DNA of 46,244 nt, from positions 1-46,244 of IMG/VR virus record IMGVR_UViG_3300009703_003370; one strand, given 5' to 3'. The DNA is from a virus. A program made the translations under genes and the position numbers. Of the stretch, positions 16,666 to 39,462 are shown one piece after another. The notes beneath the pieces were generated by a model. The model searched no databases, was not told the origin of the DNA, and saw nothing but the letters and a program-made list of their open reading frames with translations. How positions within the stretch are numbered: position 1 is the stretch's first letter; the number at the start of each line of letters is the position of its first letter.

Positions 16666-16752
16666 GGGGAAGTGGTGGAATTGGCAGACACAACAGACTT
16701 AAAATCTGTCGAGCATTAGCTCATGCGGGTTCGAGTCCCGCCTTCCCTACCA
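16666..16752 (+). tRNA. tRNA-Leu (anticodon UAA)
   Basis: 87 bases, class II tRNA with a long variable arm. Acceptor stem GGGGAAG pairs with CTTCCCT, and the T-arm is GCGGG-TTCGAGT-CCCGC. Anticodon loop CTTAAAA contains UAA. CCA is encoded. It reads UUA, abundant in this AT-rich window. Confidence 0.93.
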
Positions 16753-16757
16753 ATTTA

Positions 16758-16764
16758 GTGTAAT
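16758..16764 (+). promoter_or_regulatory. GTGTAAT element upstream of the tmRNA
   Basis: GTGTAAT ends 9 bases before the predicted mature 5' end of the tmRNA, in the 21-base gap after tRNA-Leu. If it is a -10, transcription would start about at the mature 5' end. Confidence 0.4.
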
Positions 16765-16773
16765 ACAATTTAT

Positions 16774-17193
16774 GGGAGCGTACTGGTTTCGATTTAGGAC
16801 CTTACGCCAAATTGCAAGCAGAGGATAATAGTTGGCCTCTTAAAACATCTATTAAAAAAACATAAATGCCAACGATAACGTTGACATGGAGTTCGCTCCT
16901 TCTGTAGCTGAAGCTGACGAGATTCTCGCCAAGTTCGGTTACGTTGAAGAGGAAGCTCTCCAACTGGCGGCATAAGTCCCGTCACGTCCTACTCCGGATG
17001 CTCATTAAGGAGATAGGGCGCCGACAATGAGCAAAAAAACTAGGAAGGGTGAGGAGTCTAGTATAAATAAAGTGCCTCCAACCTCGTGTGTAGTTGTCAG
17101 TGATGAAGCACGAAAAGTAACACTGACTAAGCTTGTAGTACATTTGAGCCGATGGCTCTAAAGACGCGGGTTCGACTCCCGCCGCTTCCACCA
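16774..17193 (+). ncRNA. ssrA: transfer-messenger RNA (tmRNA) with a 35-codon tag
   Basis: 420 bases, one-piece form. The tRNA-like domain is closed by GGGAGCG (16774-16780) and CGCTTCC (17183-17189), then ACCA. The T-arm is CGGGTTCGACTCCCG, and the 5' side has the characteristic TACTGGTTTCGATT. The tag frame starts at GCC 16868 and ends at TAA 16973-16975. It reads ANDNVDMEF at the start and ALQLAA at the end, 35 residues; bacterial tags are usually about 10-15. It rescues stalled ribosomes and tags products for proteolysis via the LAA end. SmpB is not seen in the window and is presumably from the host. Confidence 0.92.
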
Positions 17194-21739: not shown

Positions 21740-21831
21740 TAGGAATCTCTTGGGGAATTTTCTTGGCGTTAATTTATTTGACAATTTTATTTTTTGGTGC
21801 AATTTTTTGCTTGACATTTTATAGAAGATGA
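21718..21831 (+). CDS. 37-aa membrane peptide
   Basis: ATG 21718 overlaps the SET gene end by 22 bases. Reads MEQIKQIIGISWGIFLALIY and continues with another hydrophobic stretch ending FYRR. One or two membrane helices. A phage lysis or superinfection peptide is possible, without direct support. Confidence 0.4.
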   Translation: MEQIKQIIGISWGIFLALIYLTILFFGAIFCLTFYRR

Positions 21832-21840
21832 TGATAGACT
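21811..21840 (+). promoter_or_regulatory. sigma70-like promoter for the 58-aa gene and possibly the large ncRNA
   Basis: TTGACA, 18-base spacer, TAGACT, then 9 bases to the ATG at 21850. It is the nearest clear promoter upstream of the structured region 22030-22461. Confidence 0.6.
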
Positions 21841-21849
21841 TAGAAAGTT

Positions 21850-22026
21850 ATGAGTAATAGAACTAAAGAATACAAAGTATCGATGGTGCAAGCACCAGAC
21901 GGAACCACTGAGGTTAAATATGTTATGGAACGCGTTAAGCTGAACCAGCACAAAGCTCGCTGGCTTCCAGCTAGTAAGCGTGACTTTACCCGCTCTGTTA
22001 AAAAGGGTGGTTTAACCTGTAGGTAG
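21850..22026 (+). CDS. 58-aa basic protein preceding the large ncRNA
   Basis: MSNRTKEYKVSMVQAPDGTT, then EVKYVMERVKLNQHKARW and a basic C-terminal SKRDFTRSVKKGGL. Compact and positively charged, it could bind RNA. It stops at 22026, directly before the structured region, from the promoter at 21811. Function unknown. Confidence 0.5.
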   Translation: MSNRTKEYKVSMVQAPDGTTEVKYVMERVKLNQHKARWLPASKRDFTRSVKKGGLTCR

Positions 22027-22029
22027 CCC

Positions 22030-22461
22030 GTGTGCTACTACATCGATCTTTGACAATAACTCTGTGTTGTGGTGGTTGGGGAGATCCCGACACCTCCTTC
22101 TGGTGGGAGCATGAATCAGTAGCAGAGTTAATTATTTTTAACGATTTATTCTGGCGACGGTCGGAATAAAGGGAGTAGCGTAACAATGGTTTACAAGAGC
22201 CATAGCGCACCGAAACAAGAGGCAGGAGATCATCAATCTCTGGGAGCCGAGTAACACAGCCTGTAAGGGCAAAGTTATGAAGTGAGTAGGGTACGAAGTG
22301 TTGTAGGGTTAATGAACTTGATCTTGGCCCGAGAGTAGTTGCAGGTATTCAAGAACTCCTGCCTCCCATTAATTTAAGGCGACTAGTAATGTCGATTCTA
22401 GGCCGCTTGAGTCTTTAGAAGGACGACGGCTATTGGAAATTCGCATAGTCGTCTTTTTTTT
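22030..22461 (+). ncRNA. large structured non-coding RNA candidate (about 430 bases)
   Basis: No open frame of protein character covers 22027-22502. Long-range and local helices are frequent. AACTCTG (22058-22064) pairs with CAGAGTT (22123-22129), and TTTATTC (22145-22151) with GAATAAA (22164-22170), continuing with G-U pairs that exist only on the plus strand. GAGAT/ATCTC flanks CATCA. TTAATG (22309-22314) pairs with CATTAA (22367-22372) and encloses GCAGG/CCTGC (22341-22345 with 22358-22362); CGAC pairs with GTCG (22380-22394). It ends in a strong terminator. I see none of the conserved cores of RNase P RNA, 6S RNA or group I introns. Size and phage context resemble the GOLLD or ROOL classes, but I cannot assign it. 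Confidence 0.65.
22422..22461 (+). terminator. Rho-independent terminator of the large ncRNA
   Basis: GACGA plus CTAT on the 5' side pair with ATAG plus TCGTC on the 3' side (small bulge), 11-base loop, followed by eight T (22454-22461). Confidence 0.85.
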
Positions 22462-22502: not shown

Positions 22503-23108
22503 ATGATACAAGAAAGCGCGGCGCACCCACATGTACCTTCTGAGAAGGCTGAACTATTCCATTGTCACGATGCATGTTCTACTGAAGTAGAATATCTAGA
22601 ACTTTGGATGGCTTTGGTCGGAGCCGCAAAACCCGAAAACGTTTTAGAGACGGGCTCTTATTTCGGTCACGGCACTAAAGCGCTTGGGGCCGCTGTGAAA
22701 AGAAATGGCTTTGGTAAACTTTATACAATTGAATTGGACGATAATTGCACAAATACAACTAAAAGAGTAATAGAAGAAGCGCAGCTGCAGGATACAGTAG
22801 TGCAAATTAAACAAGACACCAGAGAGTTTTTAAAAGAAACAAATGTAAAATTTGGGCTAGCTGTGTTTGATAGTAATTTAGATTATAGAGTTAAAGAGTT
22901 TCGCATTTGCTTAGAGAGGGAGCTTCTAGAAAAAGGAGATTATGCTGTATTCCATGACTCTTCTAAGGTTAGAGAATTTCCCAAAGGCGAGAGATGCAAA
23001 GATTCAATTATATTTTGGGAAGATTTCGATCAAATTCAAAAGGATTACGATTTCGAAGGCATAATTCACTTCCCTCTAAGTAGAGGCCTTACGTTAGTGA
23101 AAATTTAA
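22503..23108 (+). CDS. class I SAM-dependent methyltransferase (Methyltransf_24-like)
   Basis: 201 residues. Motif I is ENVLETGSYFGHGTKALGAA, followed by an acidic end of strand 2 (LYTIELDDNC). LAVFDSNLDYRVKEFRICLE and DYAVFHDSSKVREFP follow at the places of motifs II-III. The His/Asp-rich VFHDSSK resembles the class that methylates O- or N-positions on sugars and small molecules. Substrate unknown. It follows the ncRNA terminator by 41 bases; a weak TTGAAT is the only -35-like element. Confidence 0.7.
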   Translation: MIQESAAHPHVPSEKAELFHCHDACSTEVEYLELWMALVGAAKPENVLETGSYFGHGTKALGAAVKRNGFGKLYTIELDDNCTNTTKRVIEEAQLQDTVVQIKQDTREFLKETNVKFGLAVFDSNLDYRVKEFRICLERELLEKGDYAVFHDSSKVREFPKGERCKDSIIFWEDFDQIQKDYDFEGIIHFPLSRGLTLVKI

Positions 23109-34051: not shown

Positions 34052-34243
34052 ATGAACTCAGAACAGGAAGAAAGAAACATTACGATAGATCATATGGTGG
34101 ATGAGAAATTCGCTGAGATTTTTTTTCTTGCAAAAGAGGAGTACTCAATTAGTGGAAATACGCCCCTAGAAAGGGAGCTTTATGATAAACTAAATTGTTA
34201 CAAGAGAGAAATAAGAGAATTTGGAGAGAAATATGGAAATTAA
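34052..34243 (+). CDS. 63-aa acidic protein
   Basis: I chose ATG 34052 (MNSEQEERNITIDHMVDEKF) because TATAAT lies 4 bases before it; the frame is open back to 34028. Helical, acidic, with no recognised motif. Overlaps the ExbB-like gene by 11 bases. Function unknown. Confidence 0.5.
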   Translation: MNSEQEERNITIDHMVDEKFAEIFFLAKEEYSISGNTPLERELYDKLNCYKREIREFGEKYGN

Positions 34244-34724
34244 TATTAAAATGAAGACCTTTACGAAATGGTTTTTACTAAACTCCTTGATGTTAACAGC
34301 AGTATTTTTTGCAGAACAAAAAGGCCTCGTATCATTAGCTATTAAAAATGATTTATCGCATATATCAATACTCATCATGGGACTTTACGTGGCCATGTCG
34401 GGTTACGTTGGTAGACTGTGCTATTTAGCAGATAGGATCAACAAAAACAAAGAATCAGAAGCCACGAGCCATTTATCAAAAAGGTCAGAGCTCGGATGGT
34501 TTGCAGCGGAGCACTTTTTCTCTTTAGGACTGTTGGGAACCATCATCGGTTTAGTAATCTCAACAGAAGGTAGTTTAGATAGCTCCTTACCTACGTCACA
34601 AATTGTCGCAGGATTAAAAGAGGGCTTAAACACTGCTTTTTATACAACTGTTTGCGGTATTGTTTTTAGCTTGCCGCTTCAAGTTCAACTTTTAATTTTA
34701 AAATTTAAATTAGAGGATAAATAA
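34233..34724 (+). CDS. MotA/TolQ/ExbB-family membrane protein
   Basis: 163 residues from ATG 34233. N-terminal membrane helices at about residues 9-25 and 45-63. The family signature is at the C-terminus: FSLGLLGTIIGLVISTEGSL and ALKEGLNTAFYTT-like GLKEGLNTAFYTTVCGIVFS, then LPLQVQLLILKFK. In ExbB/TolQ/MotA proteins these two helices line the proton path. It is smaller than typical ExbB (about 240) and lacks the large cytoplasmic loop. An ExbD-like partner is encoded at 35238. Confidence 0.75.
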   Translation: MEINIKMKTFTKWFLLNSLMLTAVFFAEQKGLVSLAIKNDLSHISILIMGLYVAMSGYVGRLCYLADRINKNKESEATSHLSKRSELGWFAAEHFFSLGLLGTIIGLVISTEGSLDSSLPTSQIVAGLKEGLNTAFYTTVCGIVFSLPLQVQLLILKFKLEDK

Positions 34725-37940: not shown

Positions 37941-38200
37941 AAATTATTATATTAATAGCTACTCTTTATTTCGCTGGCTGTTGTTGTCCAACTTGCGAGT
38001 CAACTGTGTATTACAGTCCAAATGGTAAGCCATTTCCTACAAGATGGGGTAGTCCCCCAGAGATAGAAACTAAAGACTACCGCCCCCTGCCTTATGGCTA
38101 CGGACATGGAAGCAGCACTCTTCATAACTGGATTATTAAGAATAGAGAATTAGATTTACAGAGTAGATGGAATAATTTACCAAAGACCGGAGGACTATGA
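37937..38200 (+). CDS. small lipoprotein
   Basis: 87 residues. Signal KIIILIATLYFAGC with lipobox YFAGC; Cys15 is likely lipidated, and CCCPTC follows. The mature part is Pro/Tyr/Gly-rich (YYSPNGKPFPTRWGSPPEIE). Overlaps both neighbours by 4 bases. Probably acts on the same side of the membrane as the DUF1501 protein that follows. Function unknown. Confidence 0.6.
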   Translation: MKIIILIATLYFAGCCCPTCESTVYYSPNGKPFPTRWGSPPEIETKDYRPLPYGYGHGSSTLHNWIIKNRELDLQSRWNNLPKTGGL

Positions 38201-39462
38201 ACAGAAGAGAATTTATTGAGATCGGCGCGGTAAGCGCGTTTGGAGTTAGTGTTCTAGATTTAGAGGGCGCTAAACATATTTGGAATCCTTCTAAAGAAGG
38301 TAAAGCTAAGAATATTATTAATATTTATTTACCGGGGGGTATGGCTCATCAAGAATCTTGGGACCCAAAATATTTGGCCGCCCAAGAGTATAGAGGCCCA
38401 CTTGGTACAGTTAAAACTAACACGGGCGAAAGATTTTCAGAGAATTTAAAACATACAGCAAAAGTTGCAGATAAAATTACAGTCATTCGTTCTATGACTC
38501 ATGGCGAAGCCGCACATGAGCGAGGAACACATAACATGATGACTGGGTGGCGTCCCTCTCCTGCTCTCACGTATCCTTCAATCGGCAGTGTCGTATCGAA
38601 GGAGTTTGGGAGCCGTAAGGACTTGCCACCGTATGTTGCAATTCCAACCCCGTCTCGGAGCAGCGGCGCGGGGTATTTGAGTTTTAAATATGGGCCGTTT
38701 GGCCTAGGGTCGAATCCAGAAAGCCCTAATTTCTCCGTTAGAGACTTGAGCTTACCAAGTGGCTTGACGGCAGAAAGATTTGCAGAACGTAAAAAGATGC
38801 GTTCGATTGTTGATAATCGTTTTTCCAAGCTAGAGAAGAATGACCAGTTAGATGCTATGGACTCTTTCTATCTCAAGGCGTACGATTTAATTAGCTCGCC
38901 AGACGCAAGGGCCGCTTTTGAAATAGATAAAGAGCCAACCAAAGTAAGAGAGGCTTACGGCATGAATGCTGCTGGGCAAAGATTTTTGATGGCTCGTAGA
39001 TTAGTAGAGGCGGGAGTAAGGTTCGTTTCACTTACTTATGGGGGCTGGGATCACCACAGCAACATAGAAAATAACATGAATCGTCAGCTTGAGCCGTTCG
39101 ATAAAGCTTACGCCACACTCATTACTGATCTGCACGAGAGAGGGATGTTGGATGACACACTAGTTTTAGTTACTACTGAATTTGGACGCACTCCAAAAAT
39201 TAATAGCAATGCTGGTCGAGACCATTGGCCACAAGTATTTAGTATTGCTATGGCTGGTGGAGGCGTCAAAGGGGGCTACGTTCATGGCACCTCCGATCCA
39301 ACGGGGTCTTTTCCAGAAGATGACCCGTTTACTGTTGATAACTATGCCGCTACTGTATTTAGCTTGATTGGCATCGACCCAAGGAAAGAATTAATGGCTG
39401 ATGGTGGCAGACCTATTAGAATCGTAAATAATAACGTTATTGAACCAAAGGTATTAAAATGA
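38197..39462 (+). CDS. DUF1501 protein with twin-arginine-like signal
   Basis: 421 residues. N-terminus MNRREFIEIGAVSAFGVSVL looks like a Tat signal (R-R-x-F). The body carries the alkaline-phosphatase-like DUF1501 pattern: INIYLPGGMAHQESWDPK, SMTHGEAAHERGTHNMMTGW, RFVSLTYGGWDHHSN and LVLVTTEFGRTPKINSNAGR, then DHWPQVFSIAMAGGGVKGGY. His/Asp metal-site residues are retained. It is exported folded through Tat. DUF1501 proteins are numerous in Planctomycetes and Verrucomicrobia. Substrate unknown (possibly sulfate or phosphate esters). The sharpest host clue in the window. Confidence 0.85.
   Translation: MNRREFIEIGAVSAFGVSVLDLEGAKHIWNPSKEGKAKNIINIYLPGGMAHQESWDPKYLAAQEYRGPLGTVKTNTGERFSENLKHTAKVADKITVIRSMTHGEAAHERGTHNMMTGWRPSPALTYPSIGSVVSKEFGSRKDLPPYVAIPTPSRSSGAGYLSFKYGPFGLGSNPESPNFSVRDLSLPSGLTAERFAERKKMRSIVDNRFSKLEKNDQLDAMDSFYLKAYDLISSPDARAAFEIDKEPTKVREAYGMNAAGQRFLMARRLVEAGVRFVSLTYGGWDHHSNIENNMNRQLEPFDKAYATLITDLHERGMLDDTLVLVTTEFGRTPKINSNAGRDHWPQVFSIAMAGGGVKGGYVHGTSDPTGSFPEDDPFTVDNYAATVFSLIGIDPRKELMADGGRPIRIVNNNVIEPKVLK

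Follow-up and report, generated by a model that had tools for sequence, protein, structure and literature searches.

A structured noncoding RNA lies between two phage genes

The window, as we call the whole 46,244-base IMG/VR virus record examined here, has a gap between a 58-aa ORF ending at 22026 and the next ORF, a methyltransferase gene starting at 22503. GMP reductase is the second gene downstream. The original prediction placed a large noncoding RNA in this gap, and we found no conserved reading frame between the two ORFs. With the methyltransferase as the query no relatives were found, while GMP reductase led to a group of uncultured phages related to the window. In one of these, L134, the element occupies the equivalent position, with 77% identity over 460 nt, and the adjoining methyltransferase gene is missing. 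Another, L128, has both neighbour genes and no element. Between the window and L134 the RNA domains are 81-93% identical at the nucleotide level, the neighbouring genes 62-74%, and the sequence just past the terminator 39%. We dropped a coding explanation because indels of 1, 2, 4, 9 and about 40 nt relative to L134 break any frame.

The predicted span was 22030-22461. Its end stands, and its start moves slightly later, to a boxA-like signal at 22045-22053. The view of 22045-22461 (plus strand) as a noncoding structured phage RNA largely holds. Its fold energy of -131 kcal/mol is in modest excess over shuffled sequences (-117.9 +/- 6.0; z -2.2; 2 of 100 shuffles as good). The main predicted helices are present in the sequence, and a large RNA transcribed from the plus strand is supported. 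The long-range helix 22058-22064/22123-22129 (AACUCUG/CAGAGUU) is real, and the one at 22145-22170 forms a hairpin of 11 bp whose G-U pairs exist on the plus strand alone, confirmed by four double compensatory changes in L134. Two other proposals failed. The helix 22309-22314/22367-22372 (UUAAUG/CAUUAA) reads CCAAUG/CACUAA in L134 and is not preserved in a further relative, L206, and 22363-22367 pair instead with 22171-22175. For the proposed upstream promoter, the nearest promoter-like site (21811-21840) is at shuffle level (2 found, 2.0 expected). The terminator with its run of eight T is there (22454-22461), although its stem is better placed at 22376-22385/22446-22455, which covaries.

Elsewhere, the window carries a metabolic gene load unusual for a phage between 25475 and 43552 (aldehyde dehydrogenase, saccharopine dehydrogenase, proline dehydrogenase, ornithine cyclodeaminase family and 2-hydroxyacid dehydrogenase genes) and a MotA/TolQ/ExbB-like protein at 34221-34724, also unusual in phage. 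The protein encoded at 38197-39462 is a DUF1501 protein (E 4e-111); this family is common in Planctomycetes and may hint at the host.

The core is a divergent manA RNA

At curated thresholds, Rfam listed only tRNAs and a tmRNA in the whole window. A tRNA-Leu followed by the tmRNA (140.5 bits, Rfam; without an ARAGORN call) occupies 16666-17193. At a permissive threshold, 22147-22372 aligned to the full-length model of manA RNA, RF01745, with 29.0 bits (E 1.3e-5 for all families on the stretch; E 2.5e-7 for the single family on the whole record), the sole manA match in the record. Since this score does not reach the curated gathering cut-off of 55.2 bits, we file the core as a divergent relative and not as a formal RF01745 member. 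On the same model L134 scores 23.7 bits, L206 34.6 bits and other relatives 55-78 bits. We also used a covariance model, R1, made from 11 RNAs of other related phages with the window and L134 excluded. Its sole hit in the window was 22146-22375, with 42.9 bits (E 3e-11); L134 scored 27.0 bits and L206 43 bits. Together with the common covarying helices, these matches make homology of the core to manA very likely, and the RNA that had been described as of no recognised class has an identifiable relative.

The core has in common with manA the P1 hairpin, with a loop of the GACG/GAUC type directly before P2, the five-pair closing helix P2 (GGGAG/CUCCC), P3, and the P6 hairpin with GGUA..CA..AA..CC, with the P2 3' strand directly after it. 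The P6 loop is one base longer than the consensus. The two also differ in several respects. The conserved manA sequence UGaCUGAAUAA between P2 and P3 reads UAGCGUAACAA in the window, with UUGCCGAAUAA of L206 as an intermediate, and CUGAAUAA is altered to GCGUAACAA. In place of the central multiloop with its GUGGUG and ACCA loops the window has a different domain of about 130 nt, which does not align; both this multiloop and CUGAAUAA, motifs of cyanophage manA, are altered or missing in the window. The multiloop is likewise missing from L142 and other relatives with scores over the cut-off, and L206 has much of the window's unusual central domain in common. Finally, the window core is preceded by a boxA-like signal and a 5' domain and followed by a linker and a structured terminator (Table 1). 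Taken together, the locus holds an expanded and divergent RNA of the manA type within a composite transcript that is headed by a boxA-like signal.

Table 1. Features of the RNA locus, in window positions
Feature	Position	Strand	Evidence
Hairpin just upstream of boxA (GUAG.UAGC/GCUA.CUAC)	22020-22042	+	Position recalls boxB of rRNA leaders
boxA-like putative antitermination signal GATCTTTGA	22045-22053	+	Motif shared among linker-type loci
5' domain, outer helix UAACUCUG/CAGAGUUA (22057-22064/22123-22130)	22057-22131	+	81% nt identity to L134
Divergent manA RNA core	22145-22372 (helices end at 22367)	+	RF01745, 29.0 bits; R1, 42.9 bits, E 3e-11
P1 hairpin, loop GACG	22145-22170	+	11 bp; four double compensatory changes vs L134; covaries across 71 manA cores
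P2 5' strand GGGAG (partner 22363-22367, CUCCC)	22171-22175	+	Covarying pair sets
P3, GCG/CGC closing AUGGUUU/GAGCCAU	22178-22208	+	Changes in L134 and L206
Central domain	22209-22340	+	93% nt identity to L134; partly common to L206
P6 hairpin GCAGG-UAUUCAAGAACU-CCUGC	22341-22362	+	Fits manA GugGG-UAuacAguAAU-CCcaC; covaries across 71 cores
P2 3' strand CUCCC	22363-22367	+	P2 covariation
AU linker ATTAATTT	22368-22375	+	In boxA-type loci the core is followed by ATTAATTT, ACTAATTT or a near variant
3' domain, long structured terminator hairpin, outer stem AAGGCGACUA/UAGUCGUCUU (22376-22385/22446-22455), U-tract to 22461	22376-22461	+	Covariation

Covariation supports the core and both flanking domains

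We compared P1, P2 and P6 side by side in 131 loci, which hold 71 distinct cores from the window, L134, the boxA-type phages and cyanophages. Standard pairs filled 97.1% of the cells, against 71% with shuffled partners (maximum 74%), and 278 cells were double changes, against 77 in the shuffles (maximum 99); these figures come from related sequences, with the P1 register picked with pairing in view and the P6/P2 readings of L164, L165 and L170 corrected by hand.

P2 has six pair sets across the relatives: GGGAG/CUCCC in the window, GAAAG/CUUUC in L134, GGGUA/UACCC in L206, and GGGAA/UUCCC, GGAUG/CAUCC and GGGUG/CACCC elsewhere. In P3 the closing GCG/CGC becomes GCC/GGC in L134 and L206, and the second inner pair changes from U-A to A-U in L206. 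The central domain contains a helix GUAAC/GUUAU (22251-22255/22274-22278) over the hairpin GCCU[GUAA]GGGC (22259-22270), and the helix reads GCAAC/GUUGU in L134, a double change. The 5' domain holds the inner hairpins GUUGGG/CCCGAC and CUCC/GGAG and differs from L134 by double compensatory changes from U-A to A-U and from G-C to A-U. The outer stem of the terminator is AAGACGGCCA/UGGCCGUCUU in L134, with two double compensatory changes; the 3' domain is 86% identical. In all, the comparison of the window with L134 alone gives four double changes in P1, two in the terminator stem, and others in P2, in P3, in the central hairpin and in both 5'-domain helices.

A boxA-like signal precedes the RNA

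We searched for the motif G[AT]TCTTT[GAT]A within 330 nt upstream of the manA cores. It was present in 21 of the 28 distinct loci outside the GGGAGUG cyanophage pattern, the window included, and in 2 of the 93 loci with that pattern; from the motif's frequency in these phages, 0.022 copies would be expected per 330 nt, and the 21 loci are interrelated carriers of a 9-base motif and do not count as independent trials. They are exactly the loci whose core is then followed by a ATTAATTT-type linker. The remaining seven resemble cyanophage loci: they either belong to tRNA arrays or follow a TATAAT of their own. Many of the relatives' copies read GTTCTTTAAAA, which fits the gamma-proteobacterial boxA consensus GYTCTTTAANA (PMC5725501), and the window copy departs from it at two positions. 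The motif overlaps the end of an ORF in several phages, and since in others it follows unrelated stop codons, coding does not explain it.

In rRNA operons, boxA with NusB is reported to shield untranslated RNA from Rho (PMC4807359, PMC10250234). The leaders of these operons (boxB-boxA) and the lambda nut sites have a hairpin and then boxA before untranslated structured RNA (PMC10250234), and the same order is seen at 22020-22053 in the window. The window locus differs in having no rRNA, and its boxA is putative. At the place of the hairpin upstream of boxA, L134 has a different but likewise paired hairpin (CUGCAAG/CUUGCAG); from the position of the window hairpin, a boxB-like role may be considered by analogy.

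Flanking modules are exchanged around the manA core

The window RNA is a composite of the boxA-like signal, the 5' domain, the manA core (22145-22367), the AU linker and the structured terminator. manA RNAs were found in 8 of 18 related records, elsewhere in the genomes (seven over the cut-off, one just under), and the element lies between different genes in relatives. The boxA-type manA RNAs of uncultured phages (L142-L149, part of L152-L200, and L206) resemble the window RNA in the upstream boxA-like signal, in P1, P2, P3 and P6, and in the ATTAATTT-type linker after the core, but they have other 5' and 3' modules and other genomic neighbours. Among the loci compared, only L134 has relatives of the window's own 5' and 3' domains. 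No match came from an exact 25-base pattern of the 3' hairpin, a 17-base terminator-domain pattern matched only the contig of L134, and blastn of the element and of one relative against cultured phages gave no match. About 20 pattern-scan matches (such as L151, L177 and L180) were chance coding matches and were dropped. A scan of bacterial genomes gave one real boxA-type manA, L237:3419-3609 (122 bits with R1), on a contig binned as Candidatus Woesebacteria that is possibly a misbinned phage contig; the other pattern matches in bacterial genomes were not manA by R1.

Among relatives the flanking modules differ and swap sides while the core stays. The module GGUGA.G.AACAAACG.CCG..AGAGG.A.CGGCC lies 5' of manA in L189 and L193 (in altered form in L195) and 3' of it in L178 and L200. 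A second module, upstream of manA in L178, L200, L189 and L206, combines an acceptor-like stem with a hairpin resembling a T arm (GUCAGGUUCGAAUCCUGAC, for example), and the two enclose about 100-140 nt of other sequence. From its sequence this module looks like a tRNA-like domain, and neither ARAGORN nor Rfam called it. In L142-L149, likewise, ARAGORN called neither a tRNA nor a tmRNA, so that the tRNA-like module of these loci is no standard tRNA.

The exchange of flanking modules around a retained core, and the AU linkers that separate the domains, would also suit a set of independent small RNAs on one transcript, in which the core acts by itself while the 5' and 3' domains either serve separate functions or do no more than protect the transcript ends. 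The window and L134 keep all domains together and similarly conserved, which speaks against it. This reading differs from the composite RNA that we prefer solely in whether the domains act together, and we consider it rather unlikely.

manA copies adjoin tRNA genes and diverse neighbours

A same-strand tRNA gene adjoins manA in 15 of the 131 loci (some of them near-duplicates), in 14 cases within 51 nt, mostly within 0-19 nt and commonly at 0-11 nt. Seven loci of cyanophage type (L159, L160, L167, L172, L173, L175 and L176) have manA flanked by tRNAs on both sides, mostly with almost no spacer. Weinberg et al. 2010 found manA in potential 5' UTRs of sugar, nucleotide-synthesis, ibpA and photosynthesis genes, marked it as a possible riboswitch and filed it as cis-regulatory (PMC2864571), and a later paper repeated the label, noting that verification was still due (PMC9964418). 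A position between tRNA genes is at odds with RF01745 being labelled cis-regulatory. The ends of the copies in tRNA arrays would be made by tRNA processing.

The tRNA arrays also bear on the predicted likeness to GOLLD and ROOL. These phage RNAs are large and structured and associate with tRNA arrays; they are often close to tRNA islands (PMC12286853), as manA can be in cyanophages, and the window element is phage-encoded, large and complex. The analogy retains some use in this respect, and also in that the core sits in a larger composite transcript. The identity does not: covariance-model searches with the Rfam GOLLD and ROOL models gave no match at the gathering threshold or at E up to 10, the window RNA is smaller, and its core is a divergent manA. 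We rejected membership in either family, and a giant ornate RNA of this kind, assembled from RNA only, is very improbable.

The cis-regulatory label is a more serious competitor. A metabolite-sensing, riboswitch-like manA leader could gate the downstream methyltransferase and GMP reductase through the terminator at 22376-22461. Besides the 5'-UTR placements of 2010, the L134 terminator ends about 39 nt before the GMP reductase start, and in the window this gene is the second one on. Among cyanophages, many cores have an ORF no more than 150 nt away, and this proximity, with the position of the L134 terminator, keeps an attenuator as a live rival. At the boxA-type loci L158 and L170 an ORF follows manA within 20 nt; with the nearby ORFs of the cyanophage cores, a leader role in some phages is possible. 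On the other side, the terminator stem and the manA core share no bases, and no covarying antiterminator was found. The ORFs downstream of manA are diverse, with 88 different N-termini among 108 loci (simple ORF finder), other phages with GMP reductase have manA elsewhere, and the copies between tRNA genes have no adjoining mRNA. We regard such a leader as unlikely for the window RNA.

The manA copies abutting tRNA genes, the varied neighbours and the window copy's own terminator between the core and the next gene favour a free-standing RNA over solely a 5'-UTR switch, and suggest that the manA RNAs in these phages are free-standing RNAs and not switches before metabolic genes. Judging from the sequence, we think it probable that 22045-22461 is a noncoding RNA of composite build from an uncultured phage, free-standing and processed. 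An upstream operon promoter probably drives transcription. At the rRNA-like boxA signal, host NusB/S10 would be recruited, so that RNA polymerase could cross a long stretch of structured, untranslated RNA without being stopped by Rho. The sequence then holds, as homology and covariation show, the 5' domain, the divergent manA core and the long terminator hairpin. Host RNases probably cut the AU-rich linkers, so that the manA core may accumulate as a stable RNA and would act in trans during infection. Such cutting out seems necessary where manA lies between tRNA genes in the cyanophage arrays. The neighbouring genes allow only a guess at a role of the core near translation or tRNA maturation.

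Implications for the manA family

manA has been listed since 2010 as a probable cis-regulatory RNA and possible riboswitch without a demonstrated function. Divergent cores behind boxA, the own terminator, the swapped modules and the tRNA-wedged cyanophage copies point to a free-standing RNA. A broader reading, which we put forward tentatively, is that manA may not be a riboswitch but the constant core of modular, boxA-headed phage RNA genes, whose modules (one of them tRNA-like) are AU-linked, shuffled and cut free, as the counterpart of the cyanophage copies in tRNA arrays. The free-standing reading would shift experiments from ligand screens to Northern blots, pull-downs and deletions in cultured cyanophages. 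The manA family is widened to a second, uncultured phage group that the Rfam cut-off partly missed.
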